DNA of 64,000 nucleotides, taken from Marasmius tenuissimus. Lineage: Eukaryota; Basidiomycota; Agaricomycetes; Agaricales; Marasmiaceae. The translations under genes and the position numbers were made by a program. The stretch lies in contig JAQOTA010000053.1 of assembly GCA_029532415.1 (NCBI GenBank), positions 4,836,001 to 4,900,000 of the forward strand, given 5' to 3'. The notes below the pieces were generated by a model. That model worked only from the letters and a program-made list of their open reading frames with translations. It had not been told where the DNA came from and made no database searches. This document shows, in pieces, positions 17,697 through 28,634 of this stretch; position 1 is the first letter of the stretch, and each line of letters starts with the position of its first letter.

Positions 17697-19318
17697 ATAG
17701 GTTTGACTTTGCTGCCGTCTTTTTTATCATTCAAATCCTGCGGTCCAGGCAGGTTGAGCATCACAAATAGAGTGTAAAGAAGGCCGTGGGCTGTCGTGCA
17801 AAGAGCACTTGCAGATATCGTAGCAGCCCCGTTCTCTGAGAGGTACCCATGCCGCGTTGGTAAGATCGGCACCGGTAATTGCCATTGGCTGGCAGTGGAT
17901 CCGAAATCACAGATTCTTGAAGCTCTCTCATCGCCCCGTTGCTTCAAGTGTTATAACTCACTATAACGTACAAAGTCGTCCTGAAATCCAACATTTTCGT
18001 TTCCTCGCTCAAGAATCACTGCACCATCCCGTTCATTCAAATTTGTCAGCTTGAAATTCTTGGCCCCCAGTTCAACTTCTCTTTCTCTTACACTACCATG
18101 AATTGCGAGCTCCAGAAGGCGTTGTTGGTTGCTTGCTGAGAGGAATCACAAGCTCCAAGACTCGCCAGTTGGGGAAGGGAAGAAAAGGAAAATGTAACCG
18201 TTTTTGGGATATATCTTGAAGGTATGTCTCCACTTCAGAGATTCGACCCTTACTCATTTTGGAGGAAAGAAAAGAGGTGGCTGTCGGATACAACATTGAT
18301 CAAGGCACCTGACACGCACGTTCGAAAGTGATGTCTCCGAGTCAGCTCACAGCGCCAGATCGATAGCTCGATGGCATTATTCACATTCCTTCCACATTCC
18401 TAGCATTTTCAACTTACGAATGCCCAACAGATTTGAAAGCAACGCGTCTAGCCTAACGGAGCGACGGCTGAACGGGTGTCGCGTTCGTTATAGTCTGCCT
18501 TTGGGAGGCTAAAAGGCGCCTACAAGTTCAATGCATTGCAAACGATATGCAAAAGTCTCTTTCGTGAATTTCCTGATAGACCTGTTACTACGGGTCCCGG
18601 GGCTCAGGCTTGGGAGTTGGGGCCTAAGCCAGAGTCTTGAGGTACGTTTGAAATATGCATATCACGGGCTTAAATTTTTAAACAAAACACTTTTTTTAGC
18701 TGTTAGACTACTTCTGGATCAGGACGCCAGTCTGTTACTTGGTCGTGAGCTTTCACCTCAGATAGGGTATGAAAAAGGTGCGAAGTTTCGGTGAGTGCAG
18801 CACTCACCTGATAGAATTGTACTCGTTTGTGGCTTGATAGAGTGGCTGACTTTTTGGACTTCAAGTTATGGGTCTCCTCGCGCGTGATATACAACTCGGA
18901 TGTTGGAGGCATCTCTATTATTTAACCGGGGACTTTCTGGACCCTAACGTATAACGTACTTTTCCCCTTGAAGTAGTGAGTCTAAAGCGGTCGTCCGATT
19001 TGGAATACCGGTAACAGGTATGCTAATCTTAGAGCTCGCGATAAAGTCCAGGAACTAGGTTCATGACTCACCGATGGTGTGTGGGCGATATTATTGTGGT
19101 TCAGCGACGGGAATTCTGGACGTGCCTTGGACTCAACTCACTCAGGAGTCCAAAGCCAGGACTGTCGTCGGAGCCTTTTATCCGAATCCAAACTCATTGG
19201 GTGTCGAGAGTCGATTCAAATCTGTTGCAAGGGTCGGCACAAATCCTTTGACGTCGTAGCCGGAGGATTATTAGAGATCGGTCTCTGAGTGTGTGGTAAA
19301 GCATGAAGTTCAGGTGAG
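17697..19318. other. No gene recognised
   Basis: This is the interval between the tRNA and the left end of the KDZ transposon. Frames are short and carry no motifs. I see no clear repeat. Confidence 0.45.
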
Positions 19319-19326
19319 CGCTAGCG

Positions 19327-19490
19327 AGAACACCTGGTCCACTGTCAAGTAGGTTTGTCAAACCTCGTCTGCGAACCTTGGACCTCAAACCTCAGACCTG
19401 CTCGGGAATAACGGGCGAGGTACACAGGTTCGTGCCAGGTTTGTCAATTTTTCACACGCCTGTCGATCTCAAACCTCCATCGCGGCTATT
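19327..19490 (+). repeat. Left terminal region of the KDZ element with subterminal repeats
   Basis: AGAACACC is followed by several copies of an AAACCT/AACCTC motif (for example around 19359, 19386 and 19470). The right end has the same motifs in inverted orientation. Such arrays usually bind the transposase; that role is inferred. Confidence 0.7.
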
Positions 19491-19550
19491 CATCCGCTTT
19501 GTTTCTTTATGCATTCTCGTCCCTTTCGTATTGCCATTGTTCTCGACGTG

Positions 19551-19559
19551 TATAAATAG
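19551..19559 (+). promoter_or_regulatory. TATA box of the KDZ transposase gene
   Basis: TATAAATAG lies 64 bases before the ATG at 19615, a suitable distance for a core promoter with a short leader. Confidence 0.55.
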
Positions 19560-19614
19560 TGTAGCCCAGCAATACCAGCAACCTTTCCTCCCCATTCCCC
19601 CGCCACTGTGAAAC

Positions 19615-21880
19615 ATGCCCGCCATACCTCTCTCTGCGCTACAAGCCTTATACAGTAATCCTTTCCTCCAGGATGATCTTTCGTTCGACAAACTCATCAA
19701 ATACATTGAGATAATCCGCCTCTTACGCCCTTCGCTATCCTTCCTGTGCTCTGTTGGCCCCCCACCACTGCTACCTGCAAATATCCACGATCTTTTGACC
19801 AGTTCTCTTCAAATTTCGCACGAGGCGGGCAAGGTGGCATGGGAGACCTGTAGGGATTTTATATGGGCAATGGGTACGCTTTCTGAGAGAGAGGAAAGGG
19901 GATTAAGATTGAAGCACGCGAGGCTATTTGTTGAGCATGGGATTGGAAATGGAATCGGTACGTGGAGTATGGACTGGTCGTCTACAGAATAGCACTGACC
20001 ACGAGTTGTAGGAGTGTTCAACCTGGAGCCCCCCTTCAGGACGTGCATTAACAATGCTTGTACACATACCCGACGTGGAGAATCCAGTATTCTCGTCGAG
20101 CGCACCTTGGATATTCCCATCAGACATGAAATCACGGTCTTCACAAAGGATATCGGTGCGGTTCCCGGATTCGCCACCTCACGCTACTGTCGGAGTAAGC
20201 CAATAGTTGTGATACCAGTGCTTGCCTCTTTTGATCGTGATATCCCCATCATCAGCTTGTCATACTCGTTACCATCATAACTACTACGTCCATTCCAATG
20301 CTCAACTCCGAACGTATTACAAGGCATTACCCACCATCATTCAAACCTCACAGCACTACTATGTCAGTGAAGATATGTTGCAGCTATTCCGGACAATGAT
20401 GGTGACTGCCTGGTACGTTCCAATTGTCCTGTCATATACTGAAGCTCATCAACATTACTTAGGACCTCATTCACTAACTGCGCACGTATCTATAACGAAG
20501 GGCTCGCTCGTAATATTCCCGACCTTGTGTCCCTACTTCCGCTCAACTGGCCTATTGCCCTGAAGATCACCCTCGAGATTGTTTCCGATGGGTTCTATAT
20601 CTATGCACTCATCCTTGATCAGCACGAGCGCGGCGAGACACTTCTTCTTGACCATGGTGACCAGCATAAACTCCGATTGAATAAAGCTCTCCAAGAACGA
20701 AATCTTCGAACCGCCGGGACAGGTCAGGAGGCTTGGAATCATGCATGCGACGGATGCTGTTGGGTCGAGAACCGAAATGAGACCTACTGTATGTGTATCA
20801 GCCCCTTTCTACAGACACCTGACTAAAGTTACGACAGATGCTCTTAGATCGACGGTCACTGATGGTATAACTATTGGTCATCCCTGCTGTGCTGCTGCAT
20901 TAGACTGCAAGAACCCCCTTCCCACCACGAAACATCGATTCTGTCATGAGCACGCTGACTATGCCCAGAAGTGTGCCGTTACGACGTGTAATGAAAAGGT
21001 TCGGACTGGTTTTCGTACTTGCAGCATTCCAGATCACAAGAAAGTTGAAGATTATCTGAAATTGCGGGGGAAAGCCATGTTTCAACTAAAGCACCGACTT
21101 GAACGCCTTCATACTACCCAGACACACAGCTCCTTCACCGAAGATTCTCTACGCAATGATAGTGAGGGAATCGAGGGGACTGGTGCCGACGAGGATGAGG
21201 ATGTTGAACTCGATGAAGACGGCATCTGCGATGAGAAGTCTGCAAAAGGAAATACTCAGGTAAAGGCAAGGTTTGGGCGAAAATGGACCCATAATGAACA
21301 ACTCTGTGTCGCTTCATGTGGAGTCATACTCGGGCGGGCAACTTTCTTTGGGTCGGAAGCGCCAAATGGTGTCCGGGTATGTCCTTCTCCTGTGTTTTTG
21401 TGGTCATCTTCTTATTCATGTCGTGTTCGCTAGTCGTTTTGGATGAAGCTATTCCCTACCCGGAAGTCACTACCACATGTGATGTGGTACGATAATAATT
21501 GTCGGGTAATGGCGATGTTGGGGAATGATCCGGAGCCTGATTTGCGCCACTACTTTAGCAATTGTGCTATGCCCGTCGACATTTTTCACTTCAAGTCGAA
21601 GCACAAAGGCGACCGGTGCAATATGGATTGCAATGCAGCGAATTGGCCTGAGTTGGAGTCGGCGCCGGGTGTTTGGAGGTTCAACTCTTCTGCTGCAGAA
21701 CAGACAAACGTCTGGATGGGAGGGTATCAGTCTATTGTTCGCGAGATGAGCTCTGTACGTTACAATTTTTTTTTGGACGAGATGATTAAGTGGAGAAACC
21801 GTATGATGATCGAAGAGTTGAAAGTGAACGGAAAGGCACCATATAGTATTCTGAGGCATGTACTACTAGAAACAAATTGA
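19615..21880 (+). CDS. KDZ transposase with CxC-type cysteine clusters
   Basis: Six exons (19615-19957, 20012-20194, 20256-20412, 20463-20788, 20838-21376, 21434-21880) join exactly to 664 residues. The N-terminal third is helical. It is followed by a cysteine cluster (PPFRTCINNAC to YCRTCH) and a second one with CDGCCW, HPCCAAALDC, HRFCHEH and CAVTTC, which match the CxC5/CxC6-like zinc clusters associated with KDZ transposases. The C-terminal part has the KDZ core: SFWMKLFP, an Asp in MWYDNNC, FHFKSKHKGD, CNMDCNAANWPEL, and FNSSAAEQTNVWMGGYQ with its Glu. It would cut and paste the surrounding element. The last exon could instead splice through a GC donor near 21856 to a slightly longer end. 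No frame damage is seen, so it may be active. Confidence 0.88.
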
Positions 21881-22315
21881 CGATAGATTGCAGGCTTTAC
21901 GAACCTAATCTTAGCTCAGCTCTAAAACTTTGTAAAACTGCGTTGATTTGTCTGCAGAAACGGTAAACCTGCCAAAGGGAACACTGAGTTTTGATGTATA
22001 CTTGTTGGCCACCCGGGGATTTGAACTATAGATTTTCGGGGGCAAACTCGAGACACTAAAAACATACGAGGCATGAAGATCTAAAGTAATTACAGGATAC
22101 AATCATGCATATACCGGGTTGTTTGTTCATATCGCGCTCAGAAACTGAGTTGGGAAAGCTTGTTACTCATAACAAGGGACTGGTGCTCCTCAAAGGACCC
22201 TAGAATACCTTTGTTACAATTCGTACGACAAGCACACAGGTCCCAGATTACTTGCAGGAAAATACAGTCATGGATTATAACTACATACTACATAGTACAG
22301 AATATACCGACCAAT

Positions 22316-24499
22316 CTAATCACAGAGCATGATTGGTGCTTCAATTGAGCCCATCCCACTATATTGGGGTGTTGGAGATGATGGAACCCACAGCTCAGAC
22401 TCGCCTAAATCTTCCCTTTTGACTATGGTCGTGGCGTCGTTGCTGTCGACCCCAGAATCGTAGTCCACGTACATGGGGTCCTTGTACGTATTCCCTGTAC
22501 CGCGCCGCTTAGAGGGGGAAACCACAAAGTCCGGATCCATCTCGCCCTCTCCATCGTCATCCTCTTTCTTCACTATGCTCAAGTCTTCACGGCCAGCAAG
22601 CCATTCTAATAAGGTTTTGTCGTTGTTGTTGAGAGGAAGCCAGTCGTTGTAGTCAACAGTGGTGCCCTGGGAAAGTGCACCAGCACCAACGAGACTGAGA
22701 ACCTGCTGATAACTTACATCATCATCACATAACTGGTGCTCTTGCGTCCCAAAGAATTCGCTCTGCTGGAGTAGTTCAATAGCTCCTTGGCGGGATAGTG
22801 AGAAGTCGTTTTGGATGAGACGAGTGAAAATTTCAGGAACAAGAACTTCGTCCATGAAATCGTCGTAGGTAAGCGGGCTGAAGGTCTCTGTATACAGGAC
22901 ACTCAAAGGGAACATATATCTGGTGACTAGTCGTCCAACTGAGAACCCGATCTGCCCATAACTTCGAATGTAGTATCAGTAACAATTCAGCGAAAATACG
23001 AGCTAAACTTTGACTACTCACTAGCCGGTACCGTTGCACAGAGGCTTTCCGCCGTTCATTCGCTTCACGGGAGAGATACGACCGTGCTCATGGATGTATA
23101 AGTATGTTTGCTTGAAAAATGGACTACCCTCGGGCTTATGAATAAGCTTCAAGATGACTTGTCGTATGGCGAGAACTCGTTGGAACACGGTGAGTGAATC
23201 AATGTTTCGGGGCCAAAGCAATGATTGGGGGTGCTGTGCTAGTTCTGACTCATAGCGATGGCGTGAGCAGAATGCAATAGTAACAGTGAACGACGCGGCT
23301 TTGCGATGGTCTGCATTCCAGGGGAGGGGGTCTGGTTCGGTGACGAGCAACAACTTGGAGAGCATGTCCGATAAGATTTTGCTTGGAGGCAGGATCTTCT
23401 CATCGCAGAAGGGGCACAGGTCTCGCCCTGCTGCTTCCTCTTGCAAGATATCACTGGCAAAGAAGCTTGCGGTATCATTGAAAGCTGAGCTATAGTCACT
23501 CAGACTCTCTCTATTGCCGCAGCGACCAGGATTTGACACTTCCACAAGCTCGCATGGAGAAAGAAGGGGAGAAATGGAACCGATTGGACTGCGGGCAATA
23601 TTCCGAGTACGAGCGGTCGCAGCATCTTGAACAAGAAGCAAGCTGGATTGACAAGACACAACCAATGTGGGCAGGGGTGAAATAGATTGTTGAGCTTGCG
23701 ATTGGGCATTGGGATGGGTTCCACTGGATGGAGTAGGGCGATCTGGGATAGTTGGTTGAATGGGGACGGTGGTAGTAGTGCGACAGGGAGTTATATTTGG
23801 CTGTGTTTGTAACTCGAGATCGATCCGGCGGCGGAATTCAGCCCATGCACCTGCATCACCAAGGGCAATGAACTCGTCTTGAAGAGCTTCAGAGGCTTCG
23901 TTCCACTTTTTCTTGTAAGTGACGGCAGAGGACTTACGGTACCCTATACCAAAATGCTTGGGATAGAGATTAACCTCAGTAGCCTTTGGATCGTCTGCCT
24001 TCTCATCCATAATCTTCCTAATCCCTATACCAAAAAAAGCGACGGAATAGTCTAACGGGAATCTTTTTTCTGTCTTAGAAACATTGGCTGTGCTGTGAGC
24101 AACGTCTCTGGTTCGAGAAGATGACGGTCCCCTTACGGGAGGTAGGGGTATATCGGATTTAGACAAAGGCAGAAGGGTCGAAGTCGAGGATGGAGCAAAG
24201 AGATTACTAGCGGATGGGCTTACTGACAGCGAGGGGCATGGAAGTGAAGGTAACTGAGCTCTCGGCAATACAGCCGATGCTGGAGGTAGATTTGGGATAC
24301 TACTCGAGTCAATTCCCATGTCCACCGGCTCTATACGCAGTCGCTTCACAGGTGACGCCAATTGCTCTGCCACACGCTTTGTGCCGCGCCGATAATGGGG
24401 CTGGAGGTCTAGCTGAAGCTGGAGTCCCTCGCAATCAGCAGGATCGAGGATGGTGCGGAGAGATAATCCAACCCGAATCAAGGTCGTTCTCTCTTTCAT
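22316..24499 (-). CDS. RTC4-like domain protein carried by the KDZ element
   Basis: Two exons (24499-23022, 22961-22316) give 707 residues. The first in-frame ATG is at 24499. The N-terminal ~370 residues are Ser/Pro-rich and low in complexity. The RTC4-like domain follows: DLCPFCDEKILPPS, FCSRHRYESE, WPRNIDSLTVFQRV, then GYYGQIGF across the 60-base intron, and FPLSVLYTETFSPLTYDDFM with AIELLQQSEFFG. The acidic C terminus has KKEDDDGEGE and IVKRED, resembling sumoylation-type sites. In yeast, Rtc4 was named from a telomere-capping screen; its biochemical role is unclear. This copy sits tail-to-tail with the transposase inside the element, so a mobile-element function is likely. Confidence 0.82.
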
Positions 24500-25029
24500 C
24501 GGCAAAACCTCTTAGACGGGTCCCAGGTATTTAAGGCATGGCCACCCGCAACTAGGTTGGTAGGCATTGTACAGTAGCTTGCCATGTTGTTACCAGGGTT
24601 GTACACACTGGACAAAGATGGAAGAGTATGTAAACTGAATAAAAACTGTTAACAAAGTGTACAAACACAGTAAGGTTGTAGGAAGATGTGCACTCACTGC
24701 AAAGATGGACAGTAAGATGTACATAATGTAGAACAGGTTGGGAAGGCTGGAACACTCTCGGGCATTGGGCAAGGTCATTGTACAATGAAAAACAACATTT
24801 TATATAGGTACCGATGTGAGCATGAGTGTGAAATACAGTATACAAGTGAGCATATCCCCAGTGTGTCAAATGCCCGTTGCATTGTCTACAGACTCGTCCT
24901 CCACAGCAATCTCAGGCTGCGGATAGAGATAAAAATAGCTGTAGAATATGTTAGTAGATAAAAATAAATGAAAAAGCGAAAAAACTCACCGGGAATGTTA
25001 TAGCTGGGTGTTGTGATTCTGAAGTAGCC

Positions 25030-25235
25030 AATGGTGGTGGTCAAGATGCAAGACACGCCGGAATTTCCACGGGCTAACCGGCGCGGGCTGTATCCAGAGC
25101 CGAACAGAGATTCTGGCGCAAGCACCCAGGGTTAGGTCAAGCGCTTGCGCCAGAATCCTTGTTTGGCTCTGGATACAACCCGCGCTCGCGTGTGCCGCAC
25201 AGCCTCATGCCTGGCTTGACTTAGTACCACCACCA
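25030..25235. repeat. Imperfect inverted repeat of about 95 bp arms
   Basis: The left arm (25030-25123) runs from ATGGTGGTGGT through GTATCCAGAGCC to TTCTGGCGCAAGC. The right arm (25144-25235) is its inverted copy, with a ~20-base centre. The match is best over the inner 50 bases. It lies in the gene-free middle of the KDZ element and could be the fused ends of a nested element or a hairpin. Confidence 0.75.
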
Positions 25236-26469
25236 TCGAGTTTGCGTCCGTCAACAAAAGTGAGTTTTCATCAAATTTATTATATAGAATGTACATAGAA
25301 CTATAAAGTCAAGCTTTGAACTACATACTGAGTGTCTAAGAGGGCAAAACAACCCATTTCAATCAATTTCTGACTGTTATGACTGAGAACCGCGGCATTG
25401 ATGCTGACGGTTCATTTTAACTTTTTCTCCCATAGACCAGGCATCACCCGCTCAGCTCAGAGCTCTCCAATTGTTTCTATACCCAGCTATCAAAATGGTG
25501 AGTGCATGGACAATGTGAAATGTCTCATACTTATTCTTTCACTACAGCCAAAACTACCACGCGAAGACAAGGACAGGAACTCAAGGTTGTATCGGTATCG
25601 CGAAGCTGACAAAGAGAGCAACGGTCGAGATGATGAAGCGGTCGAACGAGAATGAGAACAACCAGATGAACGAGAAAGAGAGATGCAATCTGTCACAGAA
25701 GGTGAATTGTAGGCATATCATTGCACCTGGTCCCCGGATATCTACTTGGCTGCTTGGCAGGCTGTGAGAGTCATTGGCGACGTTGTCGCCGTGAGCTTGC
25801 TGAAGGTTCATCCTAGGGTTCTTATCATCATGCTAAAATAGTACAAGATGGACCTGTGATGTAAGTGTGTCTGATTCTTACTTACTGAAGTAATTCCTGA
25901 CCCCCGTCTTCATGCTTTTTCTATAGGATGCCATCTGTTCTGCCGCCGACATTGTCTGTTTCTTCATGTTCTGCCATGTCCTACTATCAGGGCGCATATA
26001 TGTGCCCATAAATGTGCGGGTACCCTTTCATTCATCAGAGTCATACCCAAACTCATCATACCTTTTTCAAAAGGCATATAATGTTCACCGTGACAAGAAG
26101 GAGGGTGGGCAGGAAGAAGAACCATCTTTACAGTCTCCTTGGCTCTTTGGTAGCATGCTTGCTTGCTTGTTCACTGTATCTACGGCACCAATTCCGCACT
26201 GGGCTGTGATCTTCTACACTAGATTTCCCCACCTGCACTTCTCGTTCCCTGTTGCTATTGCTCTTGTTGTCATCCTCGTTTTGTGTTTTTGCAATCTCTT
26301 ACCCATGAATGTGTCCCGACGTGTTACCTCCTGTATTCTGAAGTACATAGAAATTGATTTGTGTTTGTGTCCATTCATTTGCTCACGAGTCGCACTCCCC
26401 ATGAGTGTATCTACTCCAAACAGTGTGAAATGAAATGTACTGAACATTCCACCCTGCGTACATCCCCCG

Positions 26470-26559
26470 AAAGATGTACACCTTCCGCAAGATGGAGCCA
26501 AAGATGTAAATCTTCTCCAAGATGGAGGGAAAGATGTACAACGTCTCTCAAGATGGGTA
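26470..26559 (+). repeat. Three tandem 30-bp units
   Basis: Units start at 26470, 26500 and 26530 and share AAAGATGTA near the start and CAAGATGG near position 20. Related AAGATGTACA and AAAGATGGA motifs occur at 24618, 24702-24725 and 26591, on both sides of the gene-free segment. Confidence 0.75.
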
Positions 26560-26647
26560 GGTTGCTCATTTTCTCATACAACCTGTAGCTAATGTACATC
26601 TTTAGCTACACTATGGAGGTTTATGTACATGAAAAGGCGATGGCTCC

Positions 26648-27926
26648 CTAGGTAGGGTACCCTTTCTGCGGAATCCCAACATGTGAGGGGTGTTCCCGAG
26701 TTACGAGGGGTGGTACCCACTGGGGACCTGCCTTAGAGGTTTCGCCGATGTTATCAACATCAAACTCAGAGTCTAATGTGACGTTTGTCCAACTTCGAGT
26801 AAGAAAATCCCAAAGCTCGATGTACGACTTGTCAGAGAGCTCGAGATTTGAGATGAGGGGCAGGATGGCAGAAAGAGAGGCACGTGGATAGTGTTGAATA
26901 ATATAAGTAATTCGATAAGGCTGTTTCTGTGGCTGAAATCCAAGTCAACGTCTATTATGAATGGGAAGATCGAGATTTGCTTACATCATACCACACGATG
27001 AACTTGACCTCACATTTTTGTCTTTCCAGCATTTCCTGACGCTCCTGCCTCCGTTTCTCATCCTCTGAACGTCGATCGGCAGCAGCAGTGTAGGTTTGAA
27101 GCCAGTCAGTTGACATCGGCTGTGAGAGTGTACGCGAGCCTTTCGATTTAGTACTCAGAGCTCCGACTGACTTTCCCTTTGTGTTCGTAGTGGTAGCTGC
27201 GGATCAGGGGGTAAGCTCAGGTTGAGCTACAGCAGAGGGAGCCGGTGTGTGTTGTGGCGCTGGTTGAGGAGGGATTGGTGGAGGGGGAAGTAGTCGTAGT
27301 TGAGGATGAATGAGTGGTCTATTGACCCGGGGAGGATCATCAAGCACCTCGGCGTTGTTGTGGGCTTTACATGCATCTCGAGGGATCTTTGTTGTTGTAG
27401 CATGCTGGAATGTAGTCTCACAACAGCGGGAACACAAATAGCCAATGCAATTCCGATTGCCACGAACAGATTCACCGCGAGAATTCTTGCATTGATTCAA
27501 GCAAATGATGTGACCAGTATCCTGAGGAGGAGCAGGACGAGGAACCGTGCGGAGAGCACCAAAGCGCACTGCATCAGGAAGGCTTTCCAAGGACTGTTCG
27601 GACGAGTACAATTCGAGCCGCTGTATCAAGAGCCTCGCGTCTGCGAATAGGTAACATATGTCGGAGTGATGAACGGTATAGTAACATCCAGTTCGGTGAC
27701 CAGTGCACTGTTGTGAATTAAAGGTTAGATAGATCCAAGATCAATGAAACTATGCTCGTACTGTCTGTACCACATGTCCCCTTTTGTATGCCTTTGAATC
27801 CGACGTTCCTTCAAATACCCGGAAACCCGACATCTCTTTGTAGCATTTTGGACATTTCTCGACTTTGGTATAGAATGGATCGTCGACGTGAGTTATTGCG
27901 AGAGGAAGGTTATTTGAAGTTGCCAT
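26648..27926 (-). pseudogene. Zinc-cluster protein gene of the KDZ element, with in-frame stop
   Basis: Three exons (27926-27762, 27707-26985, 26932-26648) keep one frame for 390 codons, except for a TGA at 27206-27204. The N-terminal half has paired cysteines (EKCPKCYKEM, CTGHRTGCYYTVHH, ICLNQCKNSRG, YLCSRCCETTFQHA, DACKAH), suggesting two or three zinc-binding clusters. After a proline-rich linker comes the stop, then a charged helix (RRSEDEKRRQERQEMLERQ) and a C-terminal module (KFIVWYD, TYIIQHYPRASLSAILP, ELSDKSYIELWDF). The sequence after the stop clearly continues the protein, so this is a nonsense mutation, a programmed readthrough or an unrecognised intron. Its function is unknown, but KDZ cargo is the natural reading. 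Confidence 0.65.
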
Positions 27927-28429
27927 TAAGGAGAGAAATAACAGGAGGAGTGGATGTATAGGTATATGGGACGGTACAGGGGGTGCGAGTCGGGGACAGC
28001 TACAATTCCTACAACCAGCCTTATATATGCTGCCACAAATTATGCTTTGACCGACAAACGTGGCCTTTGTCGTGCTTTTAAGACCGAGAGGAAGCCATTG
28101 TTGGCACTCTAATGTGGGCGACAATGGAGACATCAGTGCTATCGTTGTTTCCGGGTCAAGAAGGAGACACACCACTAACCAATAGATCTGGGGCTCAAGT
28201 TTGGCTCAGCACTGACTTCAGCATGAAATTCTAAGAAGAGGATGTGCTGAATCAGTGAAGTGGAATTGAGGGGGGCTTGATGCCCTAGTTGCAACGATAA
28301 TATGTTTCGGCCGGCTATTTTGAGTCTATCAAGACGATTGACGCTTTGCCAGGCAGATTGGATACAAAAAATGGGTCTGGACTTACTCTTTACGGAAGAA
28401 ATAGCTTATTGTTATCTCCGGAAGAGAAA

Positions 28430-28624
28430 GCAATGGGCCTTGGTGACAAGTTTGAGGTTCGAGCAAGGTTTGAGTCAGGTTTGAGGTAGAGGTTTGTGGC
28501 GGTGGTTTGACGAGGAGCAGGTTCGTGGGAACTGGCCGGAGAAATTAGGTAAAGTTTGAGGAAGGTTCGAGGTTTGAGGTTCGAGGGTTCGCGCGCACTA
28601 ATCCGTTAGTGGACTGGGTGTTCT
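28430..28624 (-). repeat. Right terminal region of the KDZ element with subterminal repeats
   Basis: The plus strand shows repeated GAGGTTCGAG, AGGTTTGAG and related units between 28450 and 28595, then AGTGGACTGGGTGTTCT. This is the inverted counterpart of the left end. Confidence 0.7.
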
Positions 28625-28634
28625 GGCGCTAGCG

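Follow-up and report, generated by a model that had tools for sequence, protein, structure and literature searches.

A CxC5/CxC6 gene as the probable transposase gene of a 9.3-kb terminal-inverted-repeat element in Marasmius tenuissimus

What moves a mobile-looking piece of mushroom DNA whose best-recognized protein carries CxC5 and CxC6 zinc clusters? In the available literature excerpts these clusters have so far been classed with KDZ elements, or even with Copia, as features "associated with" them. We addressed the question at a locus of Marasmius tenuissimus, a 9.3-kb element within a 64-kb stretch of DNA (the window), and searched the 71-Mb genome (70 contigs) for its relatives. With a probability of roughly 0.8, we conclude that the element is a two-gene cut-and-paste DNA transposon and that the CxC5/CxC6 protein is its transposase, because its gene is open and lies between paired ends with 8-bp duplications, a conserved catalytic triad is predicted in the protein, and no KDZ match is listed nearby.

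Element borders and the 8-bp target-site rule

The 9.3-kb DNA is a genuine transposon, with borders and gene count amended from those of an earlier note on the window. Its outer features are as follows.

19326..28625, no strand: whole transposon, 9,300 bp, 5'-GAGAACACC...GGTGTTCTG-3'
19318..19325, no strand: left target-site duplication GCGCTAGC, direct reading, register from sister copies
28626..28633, no strand: right target-site duplication GCGCTAGC, direct reading, register from sister copies
19326..19343, + strand: left terminal inverted repeat (TIR) GAGAACACCTGGTCCACT
28608..28625, - strand: right TIR, reading CAGAACACCCAGTCCACT on the - strand
19326..19485, no strand: left subterminal AACCT/AGGTT repeats, 4 forward and 3 reverse in 160 bp
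28466..28625, no strand: right subterminal AACCT/AGGTT repeats, 0 forward and 7 reverse in 160 bp

The inverted termini of the earlier note were recovered as AGAACACC at 19327 and 28624, and its subterminal motif arrays coincide with the AACCT/AGGTT density maxima of the whole 64 kb, with 8 and 7 motifs per 200-bp window at the two ends. The note had also read the octamer CGCTAGCG as the flanking duplication and had asked for the boundary to be checked. That caution was justified: a duplication is present, but CGCTAGCG was rejected in favor of GCGCTAGC, since sister copies place the element border one base outward at both ends. The apparent two-base shift of CGCTAGCG arises from the register, as the element has one base outside AGAACACC at each end, and the octamer is one base off per side because the 9-mer GCGCTAGCG is shared by chance. 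A search for exact 8-mers beside ends matching at 12/16 bases or more returned one pair when run on the 12 kb surrounding the element, and none in any of 30 first-order Markov resamplings.

Sister copies were sought by scanning the genome with the end pattern AGAACACCYRGTCCACT at ≤2 mismatches, which gave 39 matches versus 50 for the reversed control. Single ends are therefore mostly chance; the pattern was rejected as stand-alone evidence and only pairs were used. The best five matches (0–1 mismatch) all belonged to head-to-head pairs, and four such pairs were found: the window element (9,300 bp), C10:887k (717 bp), C36:235k (2,279 bp), and C37:121k (613 bp). Inspected by eye, the flanks of the four are consistent only if each end carries one extra base, GAGAACACC...GGTGTTCTG, and the resulting duplications are GCGCTAGC/GCGCTAGC, CTTGTTTT/CTTGTTTT, TATCCTCC/GATCCTCT (6/8), and GGAATGGC/GGAATGGC. 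The search for copies sharing both ends and octamers, proposed in the earlier note, thus yielded three short relatives and moved the border by one base at each end. The outer 160 bp of these relatives contain 4 and 6, 4 and 1, and 3 and 5 AACCT/AGGTT motifs. Their ends are ~70–80% identical to those of the window element (85–88% in shorter sub-matches), so these are not deletion derivatives formed recently from it. The C36 relative (L038 1040-3318) consists of the 613-bp C37 copy plus ~1.6 kb of extra DNA, with 90–100% identity in the matched parts.

A second lineage confirms the 8-bp duplication rule. A relative of the window protein on C25, 49% identical over residues 338–655, lies inside an element of 5,290 bp whose ends read GAGAGCTTCGACAC... 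and CAGAAGTTCGACACC... and whose duplication is GCATTCCA. Its end pattern matched 31 times versus 4 in the reversed control, and the 31 matches were sorted by eye into 11 pairs and 9 unpaired ends. Exact 8-mers beside matched ends were returned by search for C25, C32, C10:5361k, and the window. For the remaining 8 C25-type pairs we read 46 bases per end: four had 8/8 duplications, C41 had 7/8, C54 5/8, C23:561k 1/8, and C11, left out of the count for having both ends of one type, 2/8. Perfect duplications were present in 10/14 pairs spanning both lineages, with pairs defined by their ends alone. C5, C23:2325k, and C41 do not fix the register on their own since adjacent registers score equally, while C10:6575k and C27 do. 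End sequence and CxC5/CxC6 gene are both lineage-specific, and the gene in each case lies within a bounded element.

Three pairs from the 8-mer search were excluded from the count: C30:1700k (ends 11/16), a AAGATGGA pair within the window element (11/16), and C64 (14/16, with different ends). The last of these, G000:C64:103655-104504, has ends CAAGGGGTGTCACC and an 8-bp duplication CTAGGACT, lies within a CxC5/CxC6 relic, and is what we take to be, perhaps, a short hAT-type element. The C23:561k pair bounds a 14-kb C25-type element (G000:C23:561369-575456) with both ends and no target duplication; the two halves of its transposase lie ~8.9 kb apart, and it is perhaps a recombinant or the host of a large nested insert.

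The earlier note further held that the window element had inserted recently and may be mobile. The perfect 8/8 duplication and the open transposase gene fit an insertion that is not very old, but recent movement or present mobility is weakly supported: the genome search found no second long copy, the short copies have diverged, the only matches to an empty site in the element's own assembly were the two flanks themselves, and an insert nested in the element (below) is 3–5% from its nearest relatives. No frame of at least 95 codons reaches the insertion site within 2.5–2.8 kb on either side.

The CxC5/CxC6 protein and its predicted catalytic core

19615..21880, + strand: CxC5/CxC6 transposase gene, 6 exons, 664 aa, stop included
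19615-19957, 20012-20194, 20256-20412, 20463-20788, 20838-21376, 21434-21880, + strand: its exons
20861-20863, 21491-21493, 21698-21700: candidate catalytic codons D345, D536, and E605

The gene contains no stop or frameshift across its 664 residues, bearing out the undamaged CxC-type transposase gene of the earlier note, and Pfam matched the protein to CxC5 (1.3e-35) and CxC6 (4.7e-24) and to nothing else at E up to 1. AlphaFold models of two relatives (pTM 0.81 and 0.85) have a DDE-type RNase-H core in which the residues corresponding to D345, D536, and E605 of the window protein form the candidate triad, with the CxC6 zinc cluster directly after the first Asp. Among alignment rows with a letter at these positions, the residues are conserved in 75/76 (D), 69/70 (D), and 68/72 (E). 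Together, the relatives' models and this conservation predict an RNase-H-like core with D, D, and E in the window protein. The Pfam CxC6 match (20855-21052) starts two residues ahead of the first candidate Asp, and the CxC6 family therefore seems to extend into the enzyme core. When structures found with the two models were re-aligned, integrases or transposases made up 50/50 of those listed for each model, but Foldseek returned no match at E ≤ 0.001 for either. A sequence search of solved structures gave six weak zinc-finger matches, none with E below 0.25.

These predictions suggest how the element could move. The CxC5/CxC6 protein would bind the terminal and subterminal repeats and bring the two ends together; its putative DDE site on the RNase-H fold would cut, and insertion would take place at an 8-bp staggered target cut, as the duplications indicate. 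The short relatives with the same ends may have been moved in trans. The second gene would supply a Cys-rich partner protein, here with an RTC4-like C-terminus and split by a later Plavaka-like insertion. That the transposase and partner genes converge in both the window and C25 elements counts in favor of this account.

Several observations favor a different mover. Pfam describes CxC5/CxC6 only as clusters associated with KDZ transposases. KDZ genes are abundant in the genome, with 165 matching stretches, and, in the available parts of their paper, the authors of a Pleurotus study proposed Copia (PMC7641404). The protein could on this evidence be a DNA-binding accessory of an element moved in trans by a canonical KDZ transposase or a Copia retrotransposon. 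We regard this as unlikely: a conserved DDE-like triad is predicted on the RNase-H core of the protein itself, the elements are bounded by TIRs and 8-bp duplications, not by long terminal repeats, and the 8 CxC6 matches in the genome stand apart from the KDZ matches listed, by 8.7 kb once and by >30 kb seven times. Among the same listed matches, the one to CxC6 in the window has no KDZ match closer than 176 kb.

Short TIRs and 8-bp duplications, the latter described as usual for hAT elements in the excerpts available, would also suit a hAT-type element. The Pfam library includes hAT models, and no hAT domain matched the transposase at E up to 1. A zinc cluster placed between the first two catalytic residues, moreover, departs from the hAT layout, which counts against this assignment; that hAT structures were not among the 50 listed per model is informative in neither direction. 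We consider a hAT origin very improbable.

A single partner gene interrupted by a nested insert

22316..27926, - strand: one partner gene (previously "genes 2 and 3"), in two pieces around the nested insert
24497..26750, no strand: nested insert, 2,254 bp, ends CATCGGC/GCCGATG, Plavaka-like by its ends
24495-24496 and 26751-26752: 2-bp duplication TT of the nested insert

Coding capacity beyond the transposase is present, as the earlier note had said, in the form of a single gene rather than two. The partner gene, Cys-rich in its first part and RTC4-like in its last, is interrupted by a 2,254-bp insert, and the flanking pieces adjoin on single proteins of relatives, from which we take "genes 2 and 3" to be one gene. 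On P0119 from Marasmius sp. AFHP31 the pieces align to residues 6-184, 218-352, and 353-833; on P0118, from a second M. tenuissimus assembly, they align to 2-128 and 129-619, directly abutting. P0118 and a 96% transposase match have consecutive locus tags, both on 13,421-bp contigs, so the pair without the insert seems to exist in the second assembly. The C25 element likewise has a single partner gene, again convergent with the transposase gene; it is 27% identical to "gene 2" over 141 columns (E 7e-8), and its Cys cluster resembles that of the window partner by eye.

The alternative of three separate intact genes flanked by CGCTAGCG draws on the deposited annotation, which lists "gene 2" on its own, with a 707-aa product (P0117). 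The ATG annotated for this protein (24499) is the end of the nested insert, the insert has TIRs and 2-bp duplications in 5/5 copies with both flanks read, P0118 and P0119 span its junction, and the sister copies contradict the CGCTAGCG register. We give this version next to no credence. The case illustrates how a nested element can cause annotation to split one transposon gene in two.

Our search for copies of the insert gave at least 57 matches, with 40/88 candidates scored. Near-complete copies on C13, C28, and C44 are 95–97% identical to it, and split copies occur at C10:1862k (94–96%) and C10:5590k (88–89%), along with many partial ones. The five duplications, read by eye, are TT, AT, AA, GT, and CT. 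The longest stop-to-stop frame in the insert has 168 codons, and a 43-nt imperfect inverted repeat lies within it (25081-25123 / 25143-25185). According to the available portion of Kojima's paper, Plavaka-B elements have 2–3-bp duplications and CATCA..TGATG ends. The insert resembles them in its 2-bp duplication and in ends beginning CATC; it differs in having CATCG..CGATG, and no transposase was identified in it. It is thus Plavaka-like as judged by its termini.

The partner gene may have a second lesion, an in-frame TGA at 27204-27206; six GT-AG introns of 54–156 nt would bypass it with the long frame kept. The RTC4-like domain PF14474 ends the window partner model (1.5e-8). It was not found in P0118 or P0119, whose deposited models both stop one exon short, nor in the 719-codon frame of the C25 partner. 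The genome contains two RTC4 matches, the window partner and C12:1243k. The latter, L074 (G000:C12:1241381-1244653), is the only one outside the window and is probably the host's own gene, its family being the probable source of the partner C-terminus. The RTC4 module would then have been captured by the lineage of the window element. In the literature searched, we found nothing joining RTC4, transposons, and mushrooms.

Comparison with KDZ elements and the Pleurotus sporeless insertion

The earlier label of CxC/KDZ transposon holds in part: the element works like a DDE TIR transposon of CxC type as far as its sequence indicates, but KDZ membership is unproven because the Pfam KDZ domain is absent and the profile comparison is not significant. 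PF18758 was unmatched at E up to 1 in all three gene models, and hhalign against a profile of 33 KDZ proteins gave probabilities of 0.6–1.3%, with 1/20 column-shuffled controls outscoring the real comparison. An element belonging to the KDZ superfamily but deeply diverged would nevertheless share the 8-bp duplications of Zisupton and Dileera and the zinc clusters, going by the published excerpts. The weak profile matches fall in the expected register, and the motif order is common to both by eye (D-G, later D-x-x-C, F-H-x(3-4)-H, and E, the first two Asp being separated by a Cys-rich stretch). We judge this placement evenly balanced; it concerns classification only and is compatible with the CxC5/CxC6 protein acting as the transposase. 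The large family expected for a KDZ element was not borne out, as the window lineage comprises one long and three short copies, and the genome has 8 CxC6 matches versus 165 KDZ matching stretches (several of which may share one gene).

From what is accessible of the published descriptions, Zisupton, Dileera, and Cryptococcus KDZ1 have 8-bp duplications, KDZ1 has 241-bp TIRs, and Cryptococcus KDZ1-3 are ~9–11 kb long, comparable to the window element (PMC12730594, PMC12810828). The window element is like these in its 8/8 duplication and in the CxC-type zinc cluster of its protein, a KDZ-superfamily feature. It differs in having TIRs of ~18 bp, versus 139–241 bp in KDZ1-3, and in the absence of PF18758. 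Kyakuja elements, as described in the same partial sources, differ from it more broadly, with 7-bp duplications, CA..TG ends, and no TIRs, whereas the window element has an 8-bp duplication, GAGA..TCTG ends, and a TIR.

A CxC5/CxC6 gene can now be linked to a bounded element that has defined ends, small relatives, and a rule for its target sites, and to a predicted active site. Iyer 2014, the founding KDZ paper, may already treat CxC5/CxC6 proteins as transposases; the assignment would then be less novel.

The closest known case is the sporeless mutation of Pleurotus ostreatus, in which a 6,792-bp insert carrying a 739-aa CxC5/CxC6 open reading frame (ORF) breaks poMSH4 (PMC7641404, 2020). In the available text of that paper, the CxC5/CxC6 ORFs have no KDZ transposase nearby and the intact KDZ elements all have CxC2; Copia was suspected and the mover of the insert left unnamed. 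A 2025 paper, in the portion available, repeats the CxC5/CxC6-Copia association (PMC12568894). The poMSH4 insert and the window element are alike in being mobile-looking, in carrying a CxC5/CxC6 ORF without a KDZ transposase nearby, and in occurring in several copies. They differ in that no TIR or duplication is described for the insert in the accessible text, whose authors suspected Copia. The Pleurotus protein may belong to the same family as that of the window. It is possible, at somewhat less than even odds, that mushroom CxC5/CxC6 proteins are transposases of a superfamily of their own with 8-bp duplications and CxC6 inserted in the RNase-H fold after the first Asp, and that this class made the MSH4 mutation of commercial sporeless oyster mushrooms. 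With the CxC5/CxC6 protein itself the likely transposase, the Pleurotus case becomes testable: if the proposal is true, the 6,792-bp poMSH4 insert should have short TIRs beside an 8-bp duplication.

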